A DNA stretch of 36,100 nt from Deltaproteobacteria bacterium (GTDB lineage: Bacteria; Desulfobacterota; DSM-4660; Desulfatiglandales; B25-G16): contig JAFDDT010000038.1 of the NCBI GenBank assembly GCA_019310725.1, positions 1 to 36,100 on the forward strand, in the 5' to 3' direction. This document shows, piece after piece, positions 4,478 through 35,922 of this stretch. Position 1 is the stretch's first letter. The number at the start of each line of letters is the position of its first letter. The position numbers were made by a program, and so were the translations under genes. The notes beneath the pieces are model-generated. The model searched no databases. It had not been told where the DNA came from and was given only the letters and a program-made list of their open reading frames with translations.

Positions 4478-4870
4478 ATCCTCTTGGCAGCTGCTTAGGA
4501 GGTTAAACAGCCGGGCAGCTCCTCAAGGGCTGTCTTTTGAGTAATGTGGTCAAATCTACTCTTGACTCTTGCTCAATCCATTGTTGAGGTCCTTAACCGT
4601 ATCCTTCAGCCTTGGATCCTGACTGATCAGCCCTTTCATCCTATCAATCGGATGCGTAGTCGGCTCAAGGGGGTAAAAACTCAAGTAACAATGGGTAAGA
4701 AACAGTAAGATTATCAAGTAATTTCAAATAAATAAATGCCATTCCTCGATCCGTTGATTTTCACCAAATTTACCCATTTTTCCCCATGTTTTTTGGATTC
4801 ATGGCAAAATTATGGCAAAACCTTTTGGGTGATAAGGAAGTATCATAAGTGTCGGCTCGCGCCTACACAC

Positions 4871-5081
4871 CTATCGTTTCATTTTTGATGAAACGATAGT
4901 GACGAAATGGCTAGTAAAACCATTATATCAAATGGTTAAACGTTTCATACCTGGCACCTTTAGTTGCAAACGGCCTGTGGAGGCTATCATTTCAAAAACC
5001 ATGAAACGATATCTTGACAAGCTGGAAATACCTTTATATTATAAGAACATATTCATTTCACAGCTTTGAAAAATCGTTTCA
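4871..5081. promoter_or_regulatory. Promoter and repeated ATCGTTTCAT operator upstream of the Fic gene
   Basis: Perfect 12-bp inverted repeat CTATCGTTTCAT-TTTTG-ATGAAACGATAG (4871-4899); further copies at 4941-4948, 5001-5010 and 5072-5081; TTGACA (5014-5019)-17-TATTAT (5037-5042). Confidence 0.7.
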
Positions 5082-6368
5082 ATGATGCTTTCTAACCAGG
5101 CTATCCTTGACTACATTGCGGCCCATCCCGGCGCTCGCCGGGAGGATATCCGCCGCCAGGTCGTCCCCGAGGTGAGTGAAACGACCGTTTGGCGCACTCT
5201 GAAGCGGCTCGTGGACGAAGGCGAACTAGAGGTTTCAGGCAAAGGCCCGGCCACGGGCTACAGCCTCGCGGGCGCTGCCGTGGTCCGCGCCCATTTGCAG
5301 ACGCCTTACAACCGCCGCAGGCCGGCGAGCTATAAAAAGGAATTCCTGGACCGCTATATTCCGAACAAGACATTCTACCTCGCCGAGGCTGATCGGCAGC
5401 GCCTGCGTGAAGCCGGTACGCCTACAGCCTCGCCGCTACCGGCGGGAACCTACGCGCGCCGCATTCTTGAACGACTCCTAATTGATCTCTCTTGGGCGTC
5501 ATCTCGCATGGAAGGGAACACGTACAACCTTCTCGAAACCGAGCGCCTGATCCGATTCGGGCAGGAGGCCTCGGGAAAGGATCGCAAGGAAGCGGTGATG
5601 ATCCTTAACCACAAGGAAGCAATTCAGTACGTCGTGGAATATCTTGCTGCCATCACGATCAGCCGGGCGGACCTGTTCAACATCCACGCTTTGCTCGCAG
5701 ACGGCCTTCTGGCCGATCCCGCCATGGCTGGGCGGCTGCGGCGCATGCCCGTAGGTATTACCCATTCAAGCTTCAGACCCCTTGGCGACCAGTTCGCGAT
5801 CGAAGAAGAATTCGATATACTGATCGAAAAGGCGGCGGTCATTAATGATCCGTTTGAACGGTCTTTCTTTCTTCTCGTTCATATCCCTTATTTGCAGGCT
5901 TTCGACGACATCAACAAAAGAACCTCGCGGGTCGCCTCCAACATTCCTTTGCTGAAGGCCGATCTCGCGCCGATGTCGTTTCTTACCATGGACGACAGCG
6001 CCTATATTGACGGCCTTATTGGAATCTATGAGCTGAACAATGTTTCCCTGCTGCGCGAGGTGTATATCGAGGCATACATGACTTCGGCTGAGAACTACAG
6101 GACGTTGCGTGCGGAGGTCGAAACCCCGGAAAAGGCCGCGCTGGTTTATCGCGATTTCGTTCGTGAGGCCGTGCGCCGCAGCGTGATCGACTGGAAGGCA
6201 TTCCGGCCCGAGCTCATCATGGCCATGGCCGCCGAGGCTGATATCCCCGAAGCGGACCGCGAGGAGGTAGTCAACTATATAGGAAACGAGTTTCGTGGCC
6301 TGCATGAGGGCAATGTCATTCGCTACCGGCTGCACCCGAAGGACCTTGCGGGCATCAGCCGGGATTAG
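5082..6368 (+). CDS. Fic family protein with N-terminal winged-helix domain
   Basis: Fic-type motif HIPYLQAFDDINKRTSRVASNIPL and SSRMEGN (S/TxxxEG/N inhibitory-type motif); N-terminal HTH-like region. Confidence 0.9.
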   Translation: MMLSNQAILDYIAAHPGARREDIRRQVVPEVSETTVWRTLKRLVDEGELEVSGKGPATGYSLAGAAVVRAHLQTPYNRRRPASYKKEFLDRYIPNKTFYLAEADRQRLREAGTPTASPLPAGTYARRILERLLIDLSWASSRMEGNTYNLLETERLIRFGQEASGKDRKEAVMILNHKEAIQYVVEYLAAITISRADLFNIHALLADGLLADPAMAGRLRRMPVGITHSSFRPLGDQFAIEEEFDILIEKAAVINDPFERSFFLLVHIPYLQAFDDINKRTSRVASNIPLLKADLAPMSFLTMDDSAYIDGLIGIYELNNVSLLREVYIEAYMTSAENYRTLRAEVETPEKAALVYRDFVREAVRRSVIDWKAFRPELIMAMAAEADIPEADREEVVNYIGNEFRGLHEGNVIRYRLHPKDLAGISRD

Positions 6369-6444
6369 CCGAAAGAAGTGGATGACATGCCCATGAAGAT
6401 GGAGCCGGCAAAACATCAAAAGACGGTTGATAAATCGCGGTAAC

Positions 6445-6581
6445 TGGGATCAGCTTAGAGATACTTTTTGGCCTAAGGGAACAATCTCTTTATTATGGTT
6501 TGACGGACCGTTCGAACAATTTGAAAAACAAGGAAGCGGGACATCGTGCAGAAATTGCTTTACGGCGTGTGATTTTAGTTA
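6445..6581 (+). pseudogene. Possible 3' remnant of a Cys-rich protein gene
   Basis: Open frame without start: WDQLRDTFWPKGTISLLWFDGPFEQFEKQGSGTSCRNCFTACDFS*. Confidence 0.3.
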
Positions 6582-6619
6582 AAGACTCCATTTGTTGCAA
6601 ATGCATGAAAGGGTGCATG

Positions 6620-6820
6620 AAAGGGGGACGGGGCTAAATAATTAATCAAAAAGCGGAAACACGCGGTTTATCTTGTTATTGGGCCGTAAGAGAGCGCCAG
6701 GGCTTGGAATGAGTCAACTGGGGGGGAGTGTACGCAGTAAGAAAAGGACAGCGCATAGCAACCGAAAAAGGTATGAAATTTACAGACTGATTTATTTATC
6801 TGCTTAGCCCCGTCCCCTTT
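6620..6820. mobile_element. MITE-like element, copy 2
   Basis: Same terminal inverted repeats and interior as copy 1. Confidence 0.75.
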
Positions 6821-6884
6821 TCATCCTGGAAAATAATACATGATATAAAGACAATATAAATAAAATTTTCAATATATCTTAACC

Positions 6885-7112
6885 GATAGGGCGGACCGCT
6901 CGCTGCTGCTCGCCCGGCCTAAGGCCGTCCGCCCGATCGGGCTGCGAGATGTGCCGATTGAGTTTCATAGGCTCCGCTCACGCTCCGCCTATCAAACTCA
7001 ATCGAGCCGACCCCCTTCGGGCTTTGCCCCGCTCGGTCAGTTGGCACGGAAAATTGCATAAATGCAATTTCCGCCCCCAACCGACGGCGGCTCATCTCGC
7101 AGCCCGTTAGGC
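6885..7112 (+). other. Very long branched attC-like structure
   Basis: Perfect outer arms CGGGCTGCGAGATG (6938-6951)/CATCTCGCAGCCCG (7093-7106) followed by GTTAGGC; nested hairpins 6955-7004 and 7047-7073; preceding GGGCGGAC/GTCCGCCC hairpin 6889-6934. Confidence 0.6.
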
Positions 7113-7122
7113 TGGTTGGAAT

Positions 7123-7821
7123 ATGGAATACACGATTCTAAAGGCGTCCGATGATTTCGCGACTCTTTCCAACAGCGTGGGAAGATACAAGGAAAAGCTA
7201 TGCAAAAAGCTGCGCCTTGTTTTCAGATCACAGGACTTTAGACTTGTCTTCCTGGATACGATTCAACAGTACCTTTTATCATTGACTTCGTATATTAGGG
7301 CATTTGTCGGACTGCAGCAGAAGGTTTCGCCAGACGAGTTCCTGAAGATTCTCAACATTGGAATATTAACCGTGCAGGAATACGAGGAATCCGGGATCAT
7401 CTACAAATTCCCCATTGAGTCGCTCGTGACCATGGTACACTTCCAGATCGACTCGTTCTTCGGAGAAATATGCAGGCAGAAGGAAAGTCCACGCACGGGA
7501 TTCTACAACAGGATGAAAGAGGTCCTGGATGGTACCGACATAGGAAGTAAGGAAAAGGACGACTACCAGAACACGTTACAGTGCTTGGCATTCTTTCGAA
7601 ACTCCTTTCACAACAGGGGTCTTCATTCTATTCAGAAAGTGAAATGGAATGATGGAGCTGAGCCACCGGCGGGTGATGTGGACAGAGTTTTCTCCAAACA
7701 GGAATGCAAGATTGAGTTCAGACACAACGAAGTAATAACGTACAATTGGAGAAGCACCTTTTTACTCATTGAAGAATCGATAGAGGTCGTCAAGTCCCTC
7801 ATTACGGCTATCGTCGGATAG
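7123..7821 (+). CDS. Hypothetical cassette protein
   Basis: 232-aa ORF between two attC-like sites. Confidence 0.75.
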   Translation: MEYTILKASDDFATLSNSVGRYKEKLCKKLRLVFRSQDFRLVFLDTIQQYLLSLTSYIRAFVGLQQKVSPDEFLKILNIGILTVQEYEESGIIYKFPIESLVTMVHFQIDSFFGEICRQKESPRTGFYNRMKEVLDGTDIGSKEKDDYQNTLQCLAFFRNSFHNRGLHSIQKVKWNDGAEPPAGDVDRVFSKQECKIEFRHNEVITYNWRSTFLLIEESIEVVKSLITAIVG

Positions 7822-7968: not shown

Positions 7969-8277
7969 TTGACCATTATGAGATTGTGGCACGGCAAGGT
8001 TGATATCGAAAAGGCTGATGAATATGAGAAGTTTATGATTGAAAGAGCAGTACCAGATTATAGTTCTGTTGATGGGTTGCTAAAATTGTATTTCCAGCGG
8101 AGAAACGAAAAAACTACAGCGCATTTTCTTCTTATAACCATTTGGGATTCGTTAGAGTCAGTTAAAAAGTTTGCAGGCACCGAACCTGAACTTGCAAAGT
8201 ACTATCCAGAAGATGATTACTTTCTGCTGGAAAAAGAAAAATACACATCCCTATATCAAATATTTTATGAGAAATGA
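7969..8277 (+). CDS. Antibiotic biosynthesis monooxygenase-like (dimeric alpha-beta barrel) protein
   Basis: 102 aa; W(H)GKVDIEKADEYEKF...WDSLESVKKFAG pattern. Confidence 0.6.
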   Translation: MTIMRLWHGKVDIEKADEYEKFMIERAVPDYSSVDGLLKLYFQRRNEKTTAHFLLITIWDSLESVKKFAGTEPELAKYYPEDDYFLLEKEKYTSLYQIFYEK

Positions 8278-8287
8278 CATAAACACC

Positions 8288-8695
8288 ATGGAAATTGAAA
8301 TCAAAAAATCACGGGAGATACCCAAAGATCAACTCCTTGAGATTTACCGGCTCAACAACTGGTCCTCTCCAGAAAAATCAGAATTACTTTACAAAGCCCT
8401 AACCAATTCACACACCTTGATTTCAGCCTGGGTAAACGGCAAAATGGTTGGCGTTGCCAACGCTATTTCCGACGGATATTTGGTCGTCTATTATCCCCAC
8501 ATGCTAGTCCACCCAGACTATCAGGGAAAAGGCATTGGAACCAAAATGTTGGAGGCCATGCAAAATATATATGGCGACTATCATCAGCAGATGGTCGTTG
8601 CCGATGGCAAGGCAATTGAATTTTACAAAAAATGCGGTTTTGAGAAAGCCGGTAAAACGGCATCCATGTGGATTTGCCAAGGAATTGACCATTAA
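8288..8695 (+). CDS. GNAT family N-acetyltransferase
   Basis: YPHMLVHPDYQGKGIGTKMLEAM (acetyl-CoA binding) and AIEFYKKCGFEKAG; ATG inside the longer ORF 8171-8695. Confidence 0.88.
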   Translation: MEIEIKKSREIPKDQLLEIYRLNNWSSPEKSELLYKALTNSHTLISAWVNGKMVGVANAISDGYLVVYYPHMLVHPDYQGKGIGTKMLEAMQNIYGDYHQQMVVADGKAIEFYKKCGFEKAGKTASMWICQGIDH

Positions 8696-8714
8696 TATCA
8701 GACAGATAAATCAT

Positions 8715-8845
8715 ATAACAAAGGGGTCAAGCTGGCCGCCAACAGCGCGGCGATTTATCAAAGTTGCTGCCCGCGCACACAGTCTTGTGGTGTTTCAAGG
8801 TTGATTGCTCTGCATGTTGGCGGCAGCTTACCCCTGGCGTTGGTG
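8715..8845 (+). other. attC-like site
   Basis: ATAACAAAGGGGTCAAGCTGGCCGCCAAC...GTTGGCGGCAGCTTACCCCTGGCGTTGG. Confidence 0.65.
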
Positions 8846-8930
8846 TACCCATATCATACCAGCATCCAAATAAACGCTTGCCTTATAAAGCAATTGGTGG
8901 TACATACAAAAGTACAATAGGAGGTATACA

Positions 8931-9212
8931 ATGGGAAAACTTTTAAATATCCTTCCGGTAAGCGATTTGAGGCAGGACGCTGCCAAGGTCCTGAAAAAAT
9001 TACGAGACAACAAGGAACCCATTATCATTACACAAAGGGGACGGGCAGCTGCTGTCATAATCGGTGTCGAGGCGTATGAGAAATCCGAACACGATAAAGA
9101 GATCCTCCGGCTTTTGGCTAAGGGAGATAAGGAAATAGAAATTGGCAAGGGTTATGATCTAGATACTGTTCTTGCTGAAGCTGATTTAATCCTATCTCAG
9201 GAGCCATCGTGA
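8931..9212 (+). CDS. Phd/YefM family antitoxin
   Basis: ILPVSDLRQDAAKVLKKLRDNKEPIIITQRGRAAAVIIGVEAYE. Confidence 0.9.
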   Translation: MGKLLNILPVSDLRQDAAKVLKKLRDNKEPIIITQRGRAAAVIIGVEAYEKSEHDKEILRLLAKGDKEIEIGKGYDLDTVLAEADLILSQEPS

Positions 9213-21563: not shown

Positions 21564-21646
21564 ATTAATGTTTCAAAAATGTAACCTTGCCCTTGCAGCC
21601 GACAGCCAATCGTTGCGCTCAACCCATCGGGTTAAGAGCGCCGCTG

Positions 21647-22395
21647 CATGGCCAAGTACCCACTTTGGTGCTTACACTGGTCCAGATAGTCATTGGCGAA
21701 AACAGGAGCATAACGTATGCAGTGAATCAATTTTCAGTTTGGTTGGCTGAATCTGTGGATACTTGCGTTGATATTCTTCGCCACACCAGTTCTGTTAAAC
21801 CGCATTAGAGGGAAAAACGGCAAGGCAGGCCTGGCACGCGCTACCACAATTCCACCAATGGTCGAGGGTAAAGCTTATCTCGCGGGTAATTAGGCAGACA
21901 ATCGAGGTGCTGCAATGTACGATGAGAGAATCCAGTATGCGTTGAAAACATTTCCCACAGAGATTACAGATGAATTTCCCACATCCTTACCTTTGCTTGG
22001 CAGCTTTCGCCAAGCACATTGGAGAAAAACGACTCTTTCGCGGATTTGGAAGTGCTCCTGATTCAGCATAATCTAGGGCCTTTTCTGCTTCGCTTGGAAG
22101 CACTCTTCGAGGAAGGCTTTTGACCTGAGAGGACCTGGCTGGTGGATATCCCTTACTCAACCAACGAGCGCGTACGCAAAGAGATCCCAAAGCGGTTTGG
22201 GGTTCCAGACCTTCAGATTGCATCACCCTTCCGAGACCCGATTGCGCCTTACTCCACCATACAGTTGCGCCGCGTAGAAGATATTGTCCACTATCTTGCC
22301 AACCGGGTATCCCAATCTCGCTTGCTCGTGGTCGATGATGGCGCTTGCTTTGTCCGGGCATTAAAGAACATTGAGGATTTTGACCCTGCTTTCTC
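21647..22395 (+). pseudogene. Degraded copy A of the methyltransferase/SAH-hydrolase-like gene pair
   Basis: Nucleotide-level match to 32843-33056 and 33629-34155, with loss of ~575 bp, frameshift, in-frame TGA and 3' truncation. Confidence 0.88.
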
Positions 22396-22951: not shown

Positions 22952-23031
22952 TATCCATTCGCGACGTGACCAAGGGTGACTAACTATGAATCAAACATAG
23001 AGTTCACCCTAACTATGGGGGAGATGACCAA

Positions 23032-23142
23032 ATGCGGGTTTGGAGAATTTTCTCTGGTAAAAGCCCCGAAGAATACGGGCAAAGGGGAGATGCTCTTTTC
23101 GAAACCGCAGAATATGGACTTGCAAAGATCGTAACAGTTTAG
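23032..23142 (+). pseudogene. 5' fragment of a TPR-type protein gene, cut by an IS66-family element
   Basis: MRVWRIFSGKSPEEYGQRGDALFETAEYGLAKI then runs into the TIR at 23131. Confidence 0.55.
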
Positions 23143-23234
23143 CTCTTTGAAAAAAAATTGCAAAAACTTAAGAAAAAGCTGGCGTCGCATCAAAATCTGG
23201 TGTATGCAGTTTCTCTAACACAAAGGGGAACTGC

Positions 23235-24113
23235 ATGGAATCTATTCTTTTCAGATACCGTTCTCGGCAACTTAATGCAGATGACATACCCTTCATCAGG
23301 AGTGTTATTACCCGGAACTATACGAAGGGAAGGACCTATATCTCGCAGGTTTTATGTAAGGCTTGGGCCTGGGTACAGCCTAATGGTAAGCTTAAGGAAT
23401 ATGCAGCCCGGGACCTCCTGCTACGTTTGGAAGAAAACGGTCTCATTGAACTTCCCCCTCGCATAAAACGGAACAATAATCTCAAACCCAAATCTTTTGA
23501 TCAAACACCATTTTTCATCAAGCTGCCGCTTGGTGGATCGGTTGACGATTATCCAAAACCAGCCATCCGAGTGGCAGGCGCTCAAGATAGTTACTTATGG
23601 GATTATCTGGTCCACCACTACCACTATCTTGGGTTCCCAAAGCTTGTTGGCGCTCATTTAAAACATTTGGTCTCTATCGATGCCCAGGTCGTTGCTTGTC
23701 TGGGCTGGGCCAGTGCTGCCTGGAAGGTTAAAGACCGGGACACATTCATTGGCTGGGATGAGGCGACCAGGCGCAACAACCTTTATCTGGTTGCCAATAA
23801 TGTACGGTTTTTGATTGTGCCCTGGGTTCAGGTCAAGTATCTTGCTTCCAGGGTACTATCCTTAAGCCTCAGGCGCCTGTGCAACGACTGGCAACAACTC
23901 TATGGTCATCCCATTTATCTGGCCGAGACCTTTGTTGATAATGCCCGTTTTAAAGGTACCTGCTACCAGGCGGCCAATTGGCATTATGTGGGCCAAACCA
24001 GGGGCAGTGCCAAAAGAGGCAACGCCTATAGCTATCACGGTCACACAAAGGCTATATACCTTTATCCCTTACATTGTCATTTCAGGAGGTTGCTTTGCGA
24101 TGACCAGGGATGA
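23235..24113 (+). CDS. DUF4338 family protein (Druantia DruA-like)
   Basis: 292 aa; YLWDYLVHHYHYLGFPKLVGAHLKHLVSIDAQVVACLGWASAAWKVKDRDTFIGWDEATRRNNLYLVANNVRFLI...ETFVDNARFKGTCYQAANWHYVGQTRG. Confidence 0.85.
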   Translation: MESILFRYRSRQLNADDIPFIRSVITRNYTKGRTYISQVLCKAWAWVQPNGKLKEYAARDLLLRLEENGLIELPPRIKRNNNLKPKSFDQTPFFIKLPLGGSVDDYPKPAIRVAGAQDSYLWDYLVHHYHYLGFPKLVGAHLKHLVSIDAQVVACLGWASAAWKVKDRDTFIGWDEATRRNNLYLVANNVRFLIVPWVQVKYLASRVLSLSLRRLCNDWQQLYGHPIYLAETFVDNARFKGTCYQAANWHYVGQTRGSAKRGNAYSYHGHTKAIYLYPLHCHFRRLLCDDQG

Positions 24114-25470
24114 AGCTGTAGCCATTCTGGAGAGGCCAAGAGATCAAGCTATCGATATTATTCTGGCTCTTGCCGAAAAAGCGGAAAACTATGACCGGAT
24201 GTGTGGTGATGTCAGTCCCACAACCCCCTCCGGAATGACTCCCGTATATCTAAAGTCGAGTCATGGTAAGCGCAAAAAGCGGCCAGGCAGAAACAAAGGG
24301 CATGAAGGGGTCTCGCGCAAACGATCTGAGAAGGTGGATCATTTCAAAGAGCATATTCTGGATCGTTGCCCTGCCTGCCAGACACCTGTGAAAGATCCGA
24401 TTCAAAGCTATCAACGCTATACAGAAGATATTCCACCGGTTAAGCCAGAGGTGACAGAGCATACGGTCTATGGATATTGGTGTTCTAAATGCAAAAAAAT
24501 CGTTTATCCCAAACTCACAGATGCGTTGCCAAATTCCATGATCGGCCTCAGAGCAGTTTTCTTCACTGCCTGGCTTCATTACCTGATCGGTGTTAGTGTC
24601 AATAATATTGTCAAGATGCTTTCGGTCTTTACGAATTTCAATGTTACTACCGGTGGCTTGACACAGGCATGGAACAATCTGGCTTCCGCCCTGGAGTCGA
24701 TTTACAACGATATTGGGCAAATGGTTGCAACAAGCGCCGTGTTAAACGCAGATGAGACGGGATGGAGAATCAACGGTGTAACCCACTGGCTATGGTGCTT
24801 TGCAACCCAAACATTTTGTTATTATGTCATTGATAAAAGTCGAGGATCTCCTGTAGTGAAAAAAGTCTTTGGCGCCATATTCAAGGGAATATTGATCTGT
24901 GACTTCTGGGGCGCTTACAATAAGATAAGCGCTTTGGCCAAGCAGAGGTGTTTCTATCATCTGTTCACAGAACTCGTTAAAGTGGACAAACGCAACTCAT
25001 CTGATAGCTGGAAAGCCTTTCGTAAGAAACTATCCCGTTTGCTCATGGATGCCATCCGGTTGTCAAACAAGATAGATCAGGTTAAATCCAAAGATTATGA
25101 ACGTCTCAAAGAAAGGCTTTACGCAAGGCTTGACCAATTAATAGAGACATCCTCTGACGACAAAGATGTCACAAGACTTATCAAGCGATTAAAACGACAC
25201 AGGGAAGAACTTTTTACTTTCCTGGAATACAAAGCTGTAAGCCCGTATAACAATCACGCTGAACAGCAGATGCGAAAGCCGGTCATCACAAGGAAGATAT
25301 CGCAACAGAACAGATCAGATCAGGGAGCAAAAACTCAAGCGATCTTTATGACCTTGTTCAGATCAGCCGAACTCCAGGGACGTAATCCTGTGGAAACCAT
25401 AATGGCCGCCGCCCAAAATGCCATAGCTGATAAGGCAGTGGCTGAAAATGATTTGAAATTAACAGTATAG
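24100..25470 (+). CDS. IS66 family transposase
   Basis: CPACQTPV zinc-finger region, NADETGWRINGVTHWLWCF, GILICDFWGAYNKI, NHAEQQMRKPVITRKIS; RBS AGGAGG. Confidence 0.93.
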   Translation: MTRDEAVAILERPRDQAIDIILALAEKAENYDRMCGDVSPTTPSGMTPVYLKSSHGKRKKRPGRNKGHEGVSRKRSEKVDHFKEHILDRCPACQTPVKDPIQSYQRYTEDIPPVKPEVTEHTVYGYWCSKCKKIVYPKLTDALPNSMIGLRAVFFTAWLHYLIGVSVNNIVKMLSVFTNFNVTTGGLTQAWNNLASALESIYNDIGQMVATSAVLNADETGWRINGVTHWLWCFATQTFCYYVIDKSRGSPVVKKVFGAIFKGILICDFWGAYNKISALAKQRCFYHLFTELVKVDKRNSSDSWKAFRKKLSRLLMDAIRLSNKIDQVKSKDYERLKERLYARLDQLIETSSDDKDVTRLIKRLKRHREELFTFLEYKAVSPYNNHAEQQMRKPVITRKISQQNRSDQGAKTQAIFMTLFRSAELQGRNPVETIMAAAQNAIADKAVAENDLKLTV

Positions 25471-30885: not shown

Positions 30886-31320
30886 ATGATGGGCCTGGCC
30901 ATTGTGGATGGTCTCAGAGCGCTCTGTGCACGGCGAGTTGCGGTAGCATGCACATATTACGAGGCTGATTGGCGTGACGGGTTTGCAAACTTCATTCGGC
31001 TTTGTGGCTTTGAAACGATCCATGTTGCAACGCTTGCTGATCAGCGGTTAATCCCTGCCTCTGCGACCATGGAAGACTACGGCTGGTCTATGACACCTGA
31101 ATTAACCCGCAAGTCGGTTGGCTTTGCAGCCGACGCCGCGCCTGATGCAGAGGCAATCGTAGTAACCGGGGCGGGAACACGCACTATAGAGCTGTTGGTT
31201 GAGTTGGAGGCGAATACCGGTCGACCAATTGTTGCGGCGGATACAGTACTCTATTGGGCAATTGCACGTGAGTTGCGCTTGTCTTTGCGCCCCATTCTTG
31301 GAGCTCTTTCTAAGACGTGA
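30886..31320 (+). CDS. Maleate isomerase/AMDase-like (Asp/Glu racemase superfamily) protein, probably 5'-truncated
   Basis: GFETIHVATLADQRLIPASATMEDYGWS...EAIVVTGAGTRTIELLVELEANTGRPIVAADTVLYWAIAREL; coding similarity extends upstream to ~30720 with no ATG. Confidence 0.7.
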   Translation: MMGLAIVDGLRALCARRVAVACTYYEADWRDGFANFIRLCGFETIHVATLADQRLIPASATMEDYGWSMTPELTRKSVGFAADAAPDAEAIVVTGAGTRTIELLVELEANTGRPIVAADTVLYWAIARELRLSLRPILGALSKT

Positions 31321-32215: not shown

Positions 32216-32259
32216 TGCTTGGGGTTAGCTGGATCGAAACCGAGGTCAAGAAAAAGACT

Positions 32260-32760
32260 ATGGAAAGTAATCTAGTTAAAAAAGATTTCAAGATAAGAAA
32301 TGGTAAACCATCCGATCATGCAAGAATTGTTTCGGTTATGCAAAATTGGTGGAATGGCCGCGACCTGACTGCAATGTTACCAAAGCTGTTCCTTATTCAT
32401 TTTCGCGAAACCACCTTCATTGTTGAGAGAGGAAACGAATTGATCGGGTTTTTGGTCGGATTCCTCTCTCAATCACGTAGAAATGAGGGATATATTCATT
32501 TTGTAGGAGTGCATCCGGGGTTTCGAAACGACGGCATAGGAACTTTTTTATACGAGCGTTTTTTTGAGCTATGCCGTAAACAAAGCCGAACAATTATCCG
32601 TGCTTGTACATCACCGGTGAATAAAGGATCAATTGAATTCCACATAAAAATGGGATTTCAAATTGAGCCGGGAAATGGTGAGATGGATGGTTTTTTCGTT
32701 ATGCTCGATTATAACCGTCCGGGTGATCCAAAGGTATTATTTACAAGAATCCTGTCATAA
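32260..32760 (+). CDS. GNAT family N-acetyltransferase
   Basis: IHFVGVHPGFRNDGIGTFLYERFFELCRKQ...VNKGSIEFHIKMGFQIE. Confidence 0.9.
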   Translation: MESNLVKKDFKIRNGKPSDHARIVSVMQNWWNGRDLTAMLPKLFLIHFRETTFIVERGNELIGFLVGFLSQSRRNEGYIHFVGVHPGFRNDGIGTFLYERFFELCRKQSRTIIRACTSPVNKGSIEFHIKMGFQIEPGNGEMDGFFVMLDYNRPGDPKVLFTRILS

Positions 32761-32762
32761 CC

Positions 32763-32840
32763 AGCTAACACACCGGCTGAACCTGTCCCGCTACACACCT
32801 CGTGGCGTCCAGCGGGACAGGTTATCCGAACGTTAGCGAG
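32763..32840 (+). other. attC site
   Basis: GCTAACACACCGGCTGAACCTGTCCCGCT...AGCGGGACAGGTTATCCGAACGTTAGCG; 13-bp perfect stem. Confidence 0.75.
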
Positions 32841-32911
32841 CTGTATGGTCAAGTAGCCACTTTGGTGCTTACACTGGTCCAGATAGTCATTAGCGAAAAG
32901 GCACATAACGT

Positions 32912-33478
32912 ATGCAGTGGTTCCACTTTCAGTTTGGTTGGTTGAATCTGTGGATACTTGCGTTGATAATCTTCGCCACACCAGTTCTGTTGAACCTCAT
33001 TAGAGGGAAAAAAGGCAAGGCAGGCCTTTCACGTGCTACCACAATTCCGCCAATGTCGAGAGGTGAGCGTTTAGTCTATATCCTTGTAATGGCACCCCAG
33101 TTCTTGCTACCTCTATATGCGATTTTCGTACCCTTCACCGCACATGCAATTCTACTGGGTTTGGCCTTGCTGCTGTTTATGGTGGGGCAAGTATTCCGAT
33201 TGAAAAGTATCTGGGATTATACAGCCGGCCCACCTGGCGAACTGATCACCCATGGTGTATACCAGATTTCGCGCAATCCCGGCTATTTTGGCGCAACCCT
33301 GGTCTATCTTGGTATGGGCATCGCTGGCGGTTCCTGGCTCATCGTGGCGGTGTCGATCTATTGGTTCCTTGGCTATCAGTGGGTTGCTACGGTGGAGGAC
33401 CGCTTCTGTACGGAACACTGGCCAGACACCTTCCCCGAATACAAACGCGCGGTTGCCAAGAATCTGCTGTTTTTCTAG
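32912..33478 (+). CDS. Isoprenylcysteine carboxyl methyltransferase-family membrane methyltransferase
   Basis: 188 aa; GPPGELITHGVYQISRNPGYFGATLVYLGMGIAGGSW...VEDRFCTEHWPDTFPEYKRAV. Confidence 0.88.
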   Translation: MQWFHFQFGWLNLWILALIIFATPVLLNLIRGKKGKAGLSRATTIPPMSRGERLVYILVMAPQFLLPLYAIFVPFTAHAILLGLALLLFMVGQVFRLKSIWDYTAGPPGELITHGVYQISRNPGYFGATLVYLGMGIAGGSWLIVAVSIYWFLGYQWVATVEDRFCTEHWPDTFPEYKRAVAKNLLFF

Positions 33479-33688
33479 GCCTGCTTGTGCAATGGGTTGG
33501 TGTATAAGACATATGGGGACTGACGGTACAACCTTCAGCGGTTTTTTCACAATGGCGCGGCGCGCTAGCCCGTCACTGACGTTCGCTTCGCGCTGCGCTT
33601 GGCTTGCCCTCTTGGTTGGGAAAAATGATGGTCGAGGGTAAAGCTTATTTATTTCGCGGGTAGTTAGGCAGACAATCGAGGTGCTGCA

Positions 33689-35011
33689 ATGTACGAAGAG
33701 AGAATCCAGTATGCGTTGAAAACATTTCCCACAGAGATTGCGGATGAATTTCCCACATCCTTGCCCTTACTTGACAGCTTTCGCCAAGCGCATAGGAGAA
33801 AAAACGACTCTTTCGCAGATTTGGAAGTGCTCCTGATTCAGCATAATTTAGGGCCTTTTCTGCTTCGCTTGGAAGCGCTCTTCGAGGAAGGCCTTAGACC
33901 CGAGAGGACCTGGCTGGTGGATATTCCTTACTCAACCAATGAGCGCGTACGCAAAGAGATCCCAAAGCGGTTTGGGATTCCAGACCTTCAGATTGCACCT
34001 CCCTTCCGAGACCCTATTGCGCCATACTCCACCATACAGTTGCGCCGCGTAGAAGATATTGTCTATTACCTTGCCAACCGGGTATCTCGATCTCGCTTGC
34101 TGGTGGTTGATGATGGCGCTTACTTCGTCCGGGCATTAAAGAACATTGAGGATTTTGAACCTGGTTTCACTAATGCTTTCAGACGAAGAACTGCCATCGT
34201 TGAGCAAACAACCCGCGGCCATCGATACCTGGAACAAAAAGAATACAGGCGGCTGGTTGAGGATGCTCTTGACGCCCCTGTGGTCAGTATTGCTCGCTGC
34301 AGCACGAAGGTGGAGTTCGAAGCCCCTTTTATTGGCGTAGCCGCTTCAAGGGCTGTGGTCAACATCTTCGCCCGCGAAGGAATCGAAATAGACAATCTTG
34401 GCCGCGTAGCAATCATTGGGTTTGGCCCAGTCGGTCAAGCCGTTTTTCACGCCTTGAAGGACTTCGGTCATGCTGGTTCCATAAAGGTAGTGGACACGGA
34501 CGAGACTAAACATCAAAGAATCGCGGAACTAGGCGGTGAGCCGCACACCTCTTTGCCAAAGGAGAAGAACTTCGATCTAGTAGTAGGCTGTACGGGTTAT
34601 ACTTCCTTTGGTTTCAAAGACTGGGAGTGCCTTTCGAGTGACGCATATCTTGTTAGCACTTCGTCCGCAGCTGTCGAGTTCAATCGGAAACAATTCGTGG
34701 ATCTGGCTGAACTCTATCCAGAAGACGAAATTGAGATTGTGAATAAAGAAGACGCCAGAAAGAGCGGAATCCGTGCTACGCTGAAGATCAGAGATGCACA
34801 GAGACAGAGGCAGGTGGCATTTATCCATGCCTCCTTCCCAGTGAATTTTGATGGTCGAATGGAGTGCCTGCCCACACGGATCATCCAGGCCACACATACG
34901 CTGCTTTACGCAGCCGGATACCAAGCGCTCGAGGCGAACAGGCCGGGGATGAAATGGCTTGATCCGAAAATCGATGGTGAGATTAAGAGCAGAGCCTTGG
35001 AGTACATTTGA
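33689..35011 (+). CDS. S-adenosylhomocysteine hydrolase-like NAD-binding protein (divergent)
   Basis: 440 aa; VAIIGFGPVGQAVFHALKDFGHAGSIKVVDTDETKHQRIAELGG...FDLVVGCTGYTSFGFKDWECLSSDAYLVSTSSAAVEFN. Confidence 0.7.
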   Translation: MYEERIQYALKTFPTEIADEFPTSLPLLDSFRQAHRRKNDSFADLEVLLIQHNLGPFLLRLEALFEEGLRPERTWLVDIPYSTNERVRKEIPKRFGIPDLQIAPPFRDPIAPYSTIQLRRVEDIVYYLANRVSRSRLLVVDDGAYFVRALKNIEDFEPGFTNAFRRRTAIVEQTTRGHRYLEQKEYRRLVEDALDAPVVSIARCSTKVEFEAPFIGVAASRAVVNIFAREGIEIDNLGRVAIIGFGPVGQAVFHALKDFGHAGSIKVVDTDETKHQRIAELGGEPHTSLPKEKNFDLVVGCTGYTSFGFKDWECLSSDAYLVSTSSAAVEFNRKQFVDLAELYPEDEIEIVNKEDARKSGIRATLKIRDAQRQRQVAFIHASFPVNFDGRMECLPTRIIQATHTLLYAAGYQALEANRPGMKWLDPKIDGEIKSRALEYI

Positions 35012-35108: not shown

Positions 35109-35495
35109 ATGAACAAAGAATCGATCATGCTATCATACTTAGATGCTCTGCATCGGGGCGCAACCGAAGAGATCATCGCTCTCTTTGCTCCAGACGGCAT
35201 CGTGGAATCACCTCTGTACGGAACCGTTGGGGCATCTCGCTTTTATCGAGAAGTAGCTTCAGACACTATTAATTCAGAACTGGAGCTTAAGAATCTGTTT
35301 TTAAGCCATGATGATTCTGCCTCAGGGGCCATACAATTTCTTTACCGGTGGACGATGAAATCAGGGGCAATCGTGGCTTTTAATTGCATTGATGTATTTG
35401 AGTTTGAGGGTGAGCCACCGCGCATTAAGAAGCTGACGATTGTCTATGATACCTACCCATTGCGTGAAAGCTTTTCCGCGCTGAAGAAAGCCTGA
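35109..35495 (+). CDS. SnoaL-like / NTF2-fold protein
   Basis: MLSYLDALHRGATEEIIALFAPDGIVESPLYGTVGASRFYRE...FNCIDVFEFEGEPPRIKKLTIVYD. Confidence 0.85.
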   Translation: MNKESIMLSYLDALHRGATEEIIALFAPDGIVESPLYGTVGASRFYREVASDTINSELELKNLFLSHDDSASGAIQFLYRWTMKSGAIVAFNCIDVFEFEGEPPRIKKLTIVYDTYPLRESFSALKKA

Positions 35496-35556: not shown

Positions 35557-35922
35557 ATGAAATATTCGGCACTTAACCTTGAAGAAAAATTCGCCAGGTT
35601 TTCCGATCATTGGTCACCAAAAATAATTGCCCAGATGAATGATTACCATTTCAAATTGGTTAAGCTCCAAGGCGACTTTGTCTGGCACAGTCACGCTGAT
35701 ACCGACGAGGTTTTCATAACTCTGGATGGAGAAATGAGCATCGAACTCCGTGACGGCAAAGTTGACCTGCAAGCAGGCGAGATGTTTGTCGTCCCGAGGG
35801 GGGTGGAGCACAAACCATTCGCCGAAAAGGAATGCAAGATAATGCTTATCGAACCTGCAGGTACGATAAATACTGGTGACGCTGGCGGTGATTTCACGGC
35901 AGAAGACGACGTTTGGGTATAG
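35557..35922 (+). CDS. Cupin domain protein
   Basis: [65 protein letters not shown]. Confidence 0.93.

Follow-up and report, generated by a model that had tools for sequence, protein, structure and literature searches.

The window (the whole stretch of 36,100 nucleotides that was analysed) encodes a 440-aa protein (33689-35011, forward strand; SAHHL, subfamily A) which is a genuine variant, apparently without a name so far, of the S-adenosylhomocysteine hydrolase (SAHH) superfamily. SAHH removes a by-product of methylation, and proteins with its fold are usually taken for SAH hydrolases. The explanation that we favour, with confidence evenly divided for and against it, is that the protein would be an NAD-dependent enzyme of this superfamily whose substrate is nucleoside-like but not SAH, and that the membrane methyltransferase gene lying before it would be a coincidental neighbour. 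Judging from its active-site residues, the protein probably makes or breaks such a nucleoside-like molecule.

Fold and relatives of the SAHH-like protein

Both genes of the pair reported at 32843-35011 in the preliminary description are real (ORFs of 188 and 440 aa), and the SAHH-like Rossmann motif quoted there is found in the second. The 440-aa protein gave nothing above cut-off in Pfam, weak matches in NCBIfam (the best being shikimate dehydrogenase at 7e-4 and adenosylhomocysteinase at 8e-4) and, in a single-sequence search of the PDB, SAHH at E=0.15 only. A profile of 18 members (A3) matched the SAHH structures of the PDB at E=1e-22, and a 6-member profile (A2) had matches in 289 of the 395 genomes of the host's phylum; those inspected were canonical SAHHs, aligned from about position 26 of the 427 of the model, N-terminal half included. 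None of the scanned members passed the cut-offs of the curated SAHH profiles. The comparison of a predicted structure with SAHH, suggested earlier as a check, was based on an AlphaFold2 model (pLDDT 88.1, pTM 0.88); when Foldseek compared it with the PDB, each of the best 50 matches was an SAHH (424-489 columns, TM 0.58-0.69 by query length). According to this model, the protein is an SAHH fold from end to end, with both domains. The N-terminal half had been described as different, which is wrong because the SAHH homology spans the whole length; the profile alignment and the fold show a diverged SAHH N-terminal domain.

The relatives were gathered by tblastn on plasmids and by an alignment-driven scan of GTDB genomes, giving 23 loci in three subfamilies from Actinomycetota, Chlamydiota, Chloroflexota, Gemmatimonadota and others, with some archaea. 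Briefly, subfamily A (about 440 aa) contains the window protein and those of a genome of the same genus (G013), of Anaerolineales (L015, 46%) and of Gemmatimonadota (L030, 48%), together with a Thermoplasmatales fragment (L035). Subfamily B (about 500 aa, with an extra N-terminus) groups proteins of Streptomyces, Kitasatospora and one further actinobacterial MAG, and subfamily C (about 380 aa) those of Chlamydiota, Verrucomicrobia, Acidobacteria, Saccharimonadia and one Pacearchaeota. In the tree, the canonical SAHHs form their own clade (100/100) on a long branch, with the SAHH-like members outside. The latter come together in 82% of the bootstrap trees, with weak SH-aLRT values (84/31) and long-branch warnings, so that this tree unites the three subfamilies only weakly as one set. 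At least one distant relative carries the database annotation adenosylhomocysteinase; others are labelled NAD(P)-dependent oxidoreductase or hypothetical protein. Searches of the open-access literature led to AgmF (discussed below) and to nothing that describes these relatives as a set. An SAHH NAD domain is present in most related genomes. The host itself carries a canonical SAHH (G000:C275:402-1703, PF05221, 215 bits), in agreement with the earlier remark that another canonical SAHH would be redundant.

Two plasmids (L097:7698-8819, annotated adenosylhomocysteinase, and L098:3602-4831) carry a further, more distant SAHH-like group with EDTENG/EGTENG instead of EETTTG. The Verrucomicrobia MAG L018 has divergent SAHH-like genes (5219-6358 and 7971-9170) on either side of an MFS transporter. 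At L035:7400-10320 (Thermoplasmatales), the C-terminal part of a subfamily-A gene, with in-frame stops upstream, adjoins a PLP decarboxylase and a phosphoribosyltransferase. Viral or phage carriage was rejected, no relatives being found in IMG/VR scans and phage records. An anti-phage role was rejected as well: PADLOC matches neither window gene, and SIR2 neighbours occur in L015 alone (4849-7228), where two SIR2_2-domain genes lie downstream of the SAHH-like gene, one of them with a weak ThsA match.

Active-site residues and candidate substrate

For the comparison of residues, 18 members were aligned together with 36 canonical SAHHs and numbered as in the human protein, the key positions of which were verified by number. 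K186, N346, E155, T157 and the GxGxxG glycines are kept in all members, H55 and D131 in 16 of 17 each, and an acidic residue at 243 is also retained in this census of 18. E156Q, D190E and N191S/A occur in every member (18/18) and in no canonical SAHH (0/36), while N181A and H301S are found in 17 of the 18. The SAHH residues T57, H353, M358 and F362 are present in no member, E59 is retained in no listed member and T60 in 6 only. The window protein retains H52, D142, K207 and N386 (SAHH H55, D131, K186 and N346); its Q173, A202, E211, A212 and S326 stand for SAHH E156, N181, D190, N191 and H301, leaving just H55, D131 and K186 from the catalytic and ribose-binding set (H55, D131, E156, K186, D190, N191, H301). 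Its NAD motif is present (GxGxxG at G244, G246 and G249, plus the acidic D269). The preliminary description had made its reading depend in part on a conserved SAHH active-site geometry; the residues H55, D131 and K186 persist, and E156, N181, D190, N191 and H301 are replaced.

With SAHH (adenosylhomocysteinase, EC 3.13.2.1; PF05221/PF00670, TIGR00936), the protein has in common the whole-chain fold, the NAD motif and H55/D131/K186/N346, but it differs by E156Q, N181A, D190E, N191S/A and H301S and by the loss of the adenine-pocket residues. Because adenine and ribose contacts are replaced, a substrate other than SAH is predicted, and the residues argue for NAD chemistry retained on another substrate. 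The earlier suggestion of a modified SAH-like or other nucleoside product fits this census, which makes a changed substrate likely. The E156Q + D190E signature splits the relatives from real SAHHs and would provide a simple rule against misannotation.

Two known systems help to situate the protein. The HxTxE(Q) motif has been tied to SAH preference and HxExK to SIH preference (PMC10978960); positions 52-56 of the window protein read HNLGP, i.e. HxLxP, so that both fingerprints are absent. The SIHHs (e.g. PDB 7r3a), members of the SAHH superfamily that take a base other than adenine, are matched by the A3 profile at E=8e-16 but differ by this HxExK motif. AgmF, from angustmycin A biosynthesis, is annotated as an SAH hydrolase, yet it does not use SAH, binds NAD+ tightly and dehydrates a nucleoside; its cluster encodes a PRPP synthetase, a PRTase and a phosphatase, and its essential residues are H56, D129, K184, D188 and H299 (PMC8599513). 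The SAHH-like protein would likewise represent an SAHH fold outside SAH metabolism, and the AgmF cluster resembles the Streptomyces operon of its relatives. However, AgmF has D188 and H299 where the SAHH-like members have E and S, and the window gene is without such an operon. Because of D190E and H301S, the protein is not of AgmF type by the residue test, and the precedent is therefore an analogy only.

By this analogy, NAD+ would transiently oxidise a sugar hydroxyl of the nucleoside-like substrate, a base-assisted elimination or addition would follow at the next carbon, and re-reduction would close the SAHH-type reaction; NAD use, chemistry and substrate class are what we infer here, whereas the fold, the residue census, the gene neighbourhoods and the decay of a second copy of the gene pair (copy A, below) are observations.

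Changes at catalytic positions would equally fit lost activity, that is an NAD-binding pseudoenzyme or regulator in which the fold is retained and catalysis is gone. Such a loss with a kept fold is proposed for some eukaryotic AHCY-like proteins, and E156Q and H301S do take away catalytic groups. We nevertheless hold this to be unlikely: Q173, E211 and K207 are invariant (18/18) and H55 and D131 are kept in 16 of 17, across phyla, and the invariance of the replacements over phylum-wide distances suggests that the active site is under selection and has not simply decayed. A divergent true SAH hydrolase, supplied with a methyltransferase for local SAH clearance, would agree with the SAHH fold, the retention of H55/D131/K186 and the methyltransferases near several members; it becomes improbable in view of the HxLxP that replaces the HxTxE(Q) of SAH users (PMC10978960), of the replacement of E156, N181, D190, N191, H301 and H353 in all or nearly all members, of the canonical SAHH already in the host and of a PEMT-type gene that is unlinked elsewhere. 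It is very doubtful that the protein is instead an NAD(P)-dependent amino- or hydroxy-acid dehydrogenase (dipicolinate-synthase A or PylD-like) sharing the Rossmann layout only. Weak NCBIfam matches point that way (spore_dpaA at 3e-5 and 1e-5 for Streptomyces members, PylD at 9e-4 for L015), but SAHH models reach much higher scores (up to 92 bits), with matches that extend over the N-terminal domain as well, and the best 50 fold matches are all SAHH.

The methyltransferase and other gene neighbourhoods

The gene preceding the SAHH-like gene (32912-33478, forward strand) encodes an integral-membrane protein of 188 aa. It had been assigned to the ICMT family; it is a membrane methyltransferase, but of PEMT type, scoring 47.3 bits against Pfam PEMT (PF04191, cut-off 25) and 16.9 bits against ICMT (PF04140), under the cut-off of 24. 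All NCBIfam models stay under cut-off, without equivalog match. The two genes are separated by 210 bp (33479-33688, forward strand), around which promoter- or terminator-like matches were not more numerous than in shuffled sequence. Downstream, on the same strand, are encoded a SnoaL_2-like protein (35109-35495, same order in G013), and a Cupin_2 protein (35557-35922). Next comes a class I methyltransferase, which the contig end interrupts in the window and which is whole in the G013 locus (L013). At 30886-31320, an arylmalonate-decarboxylase-like ORF covers only profile positions 96-218 of 228 (the C-terminal part) and is probably truncated.

A PEMT profile made from the window gene and its relatives (a small seed, with limited sensitivity) was applied to every ORF at the SAHH-like loci, some of which end at contig edges (L014, and L015 upstream of the gene). 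It found no clear member at the 26 other SAHH-like loci, with a weak match (E=0.02) about 5 kb off in L033. Considering the two closest relatives outside the host genus, L030 has no PEMT gene on either side and the L015 contig begins just upstream of the SAHH-like gene. In G013, a PEMT gene lies further downstream of the SAHH-like gene and is 23% identical to that of the window. The neighbourhood analysis proposed earlier thus speaks against a PEMT/SAHH-like pair that travels as a module: as no PEMT-type gene was found near the 26 other members, the two genes do not make up a conserved module; this candidate was rejected, and the pairing in the window is probably incidental. Class I methyltransferases adjoin some relatives, in the Streptomyces operon, in L021 (where the methyltransferase overlaps the start of the SAHH-like gene) and in L031 (UbiA, then methyltransferase), so that a looser link between SAHH-like proteins and methylation may exist; no enrichment is claimed.

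The operon of Streptomyces and Kitasatospora has the order GNAT, SAHH-like protein, 155-aa unknown protein, class I methyltransferase, 650-aa phosphoribosyltransferase and HAD. This order holds in every subfamily-B operon locus that is long enough (L010:4757-11059, L020:6767-15287 and equivalents), most often with a B12-binding radical SAM protein encoded next, and the operon looks like an undescribed nucleoside-type pathway. In Actinomycetota, the phosphoribosyltransferase and the HAD phosphatase encoded nearby would probably make the substrate from PRPP, with methylation as the next step. We propose, tentatively and with somewhat more doubt than belief, that this unrecognised branch of the superfamily, which occurs in several bacterial phyla and in some archaea, would perform an NAD-dependent step in an undescribed pathway for a nucleoside-like metabolite (in Streptomyces with PRTase, HAD, methyltransferase and B12-radical-SAM protein). 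The operon of Streptomyces offers a concrete candidate pathway, either to a nucleoside natural product or for nucleoside modification. The phosphoribosyltransferase operon is absent from subfamilies A and C, window included, and the function may therefore differ between subfamilies; the substrate of the window protein, whose gene is without the operon, may be imported or made elsewhere.

Other arrangements were also observed. A more distant Streptomyces member (L034) is without the subfamily-B operon: at L034:7596-11154, the SAHH-like gene is followed by a cupin (DUF985)/polyketide-cyclase (SRPBCC) fusion and then by a PRPP synthetase, with a cytochrome P450 upstream. At Simkania-type loci, the SAHH-like gene is accompanied by SDR and/or EamA transporters.

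The attC-like site and the decayed second copy

The pair had been described as carried behind an attC site, and an attC-like hairpin does lie directly upstream (32763-32838, forward strand), at the 3' end of a GNAT acetyltransferase gene (32239-32760, same strand). This long imperfect hairpin has the R''/L''/L'/R' architecture (R'' AGCTAAC, R' GTTAGCG). It was the sole convincing site in a scan of the window, the remaining candidates being weak, with none in the gap between the two genes or beyond them downstream, and it has no close DNA relative elsewhere in the host genome. As regards the features of an integron cassette, the upstream attC is present, and no attC was found 3' of either gene. 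An integron integrase (TIGR02249) is encoded on another contig of the host (G000:C233:3800-4746, L095) and is read in two frames, which reflects a frameshift or an assembly error. A cassette-array reading was rejected, on account of the single attC-like site in the window and its lack of a relative in the genome.

The claim that the pair was duplicated as a unit (21647-22395) is correct as to the existence of a second copy (copy A, 21643-22393, forward strand), but DNA comparison and reading frames show a decayed remnant, truncated at residue ~160. Copy A matches the pair described above (copy B) at 32840-33060 and 33628-34168, with DNA identities of 90% and 93%; about 570 bp between the matching blocks are missing, with the joint at the short shared word ATG-TCGAG. 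The N-terminal PEMT fragment has a stop at codon 3, and the SAHH-like part has a 1-bp deletion (a missing A) causing a frameshift, contains a TGA in frame and breaks off at about residue 160. Copy A is a dead pseudogene remnant of the pair, although there were thus, at one time, two copies of a longer unit. The sequence shared by the two begins directly after the attC-like site of copy B and includes both genes.

This last feature, together with the PEMT gene that G013 too has near its SAHH-like gene, favours one integron cassette that would hold the two genes as a joint functional unit restricted to this genus. We give this reading little credence, given the 210-bp gap, the lack of a second attC in the window, an attC-like site that is unique in the genome, an integron integrase split by a frameshift, and a PEMT gene in G013 that lies downstream and is just 23% identical. 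Under the coincidental pairing that we prefer, the PEMT gene would have been brought in with or next to the SAHH-like gene, the pair would have been inserted behind the attC-like site, and the older copy would have decayed.

The SAHH-like gene of G013 is 91% identical to that of the window, and its contig stops at residue 159, about the endpoint of copy A; one cause might be that the assembly broke at a repeat. Copy A adjoins a region (23020-25470) containing the remnant of a gene that is intact in G013 (L013:6603-7850), followed by transposase-like ORFs, which suggests transposon-driven breakage there.
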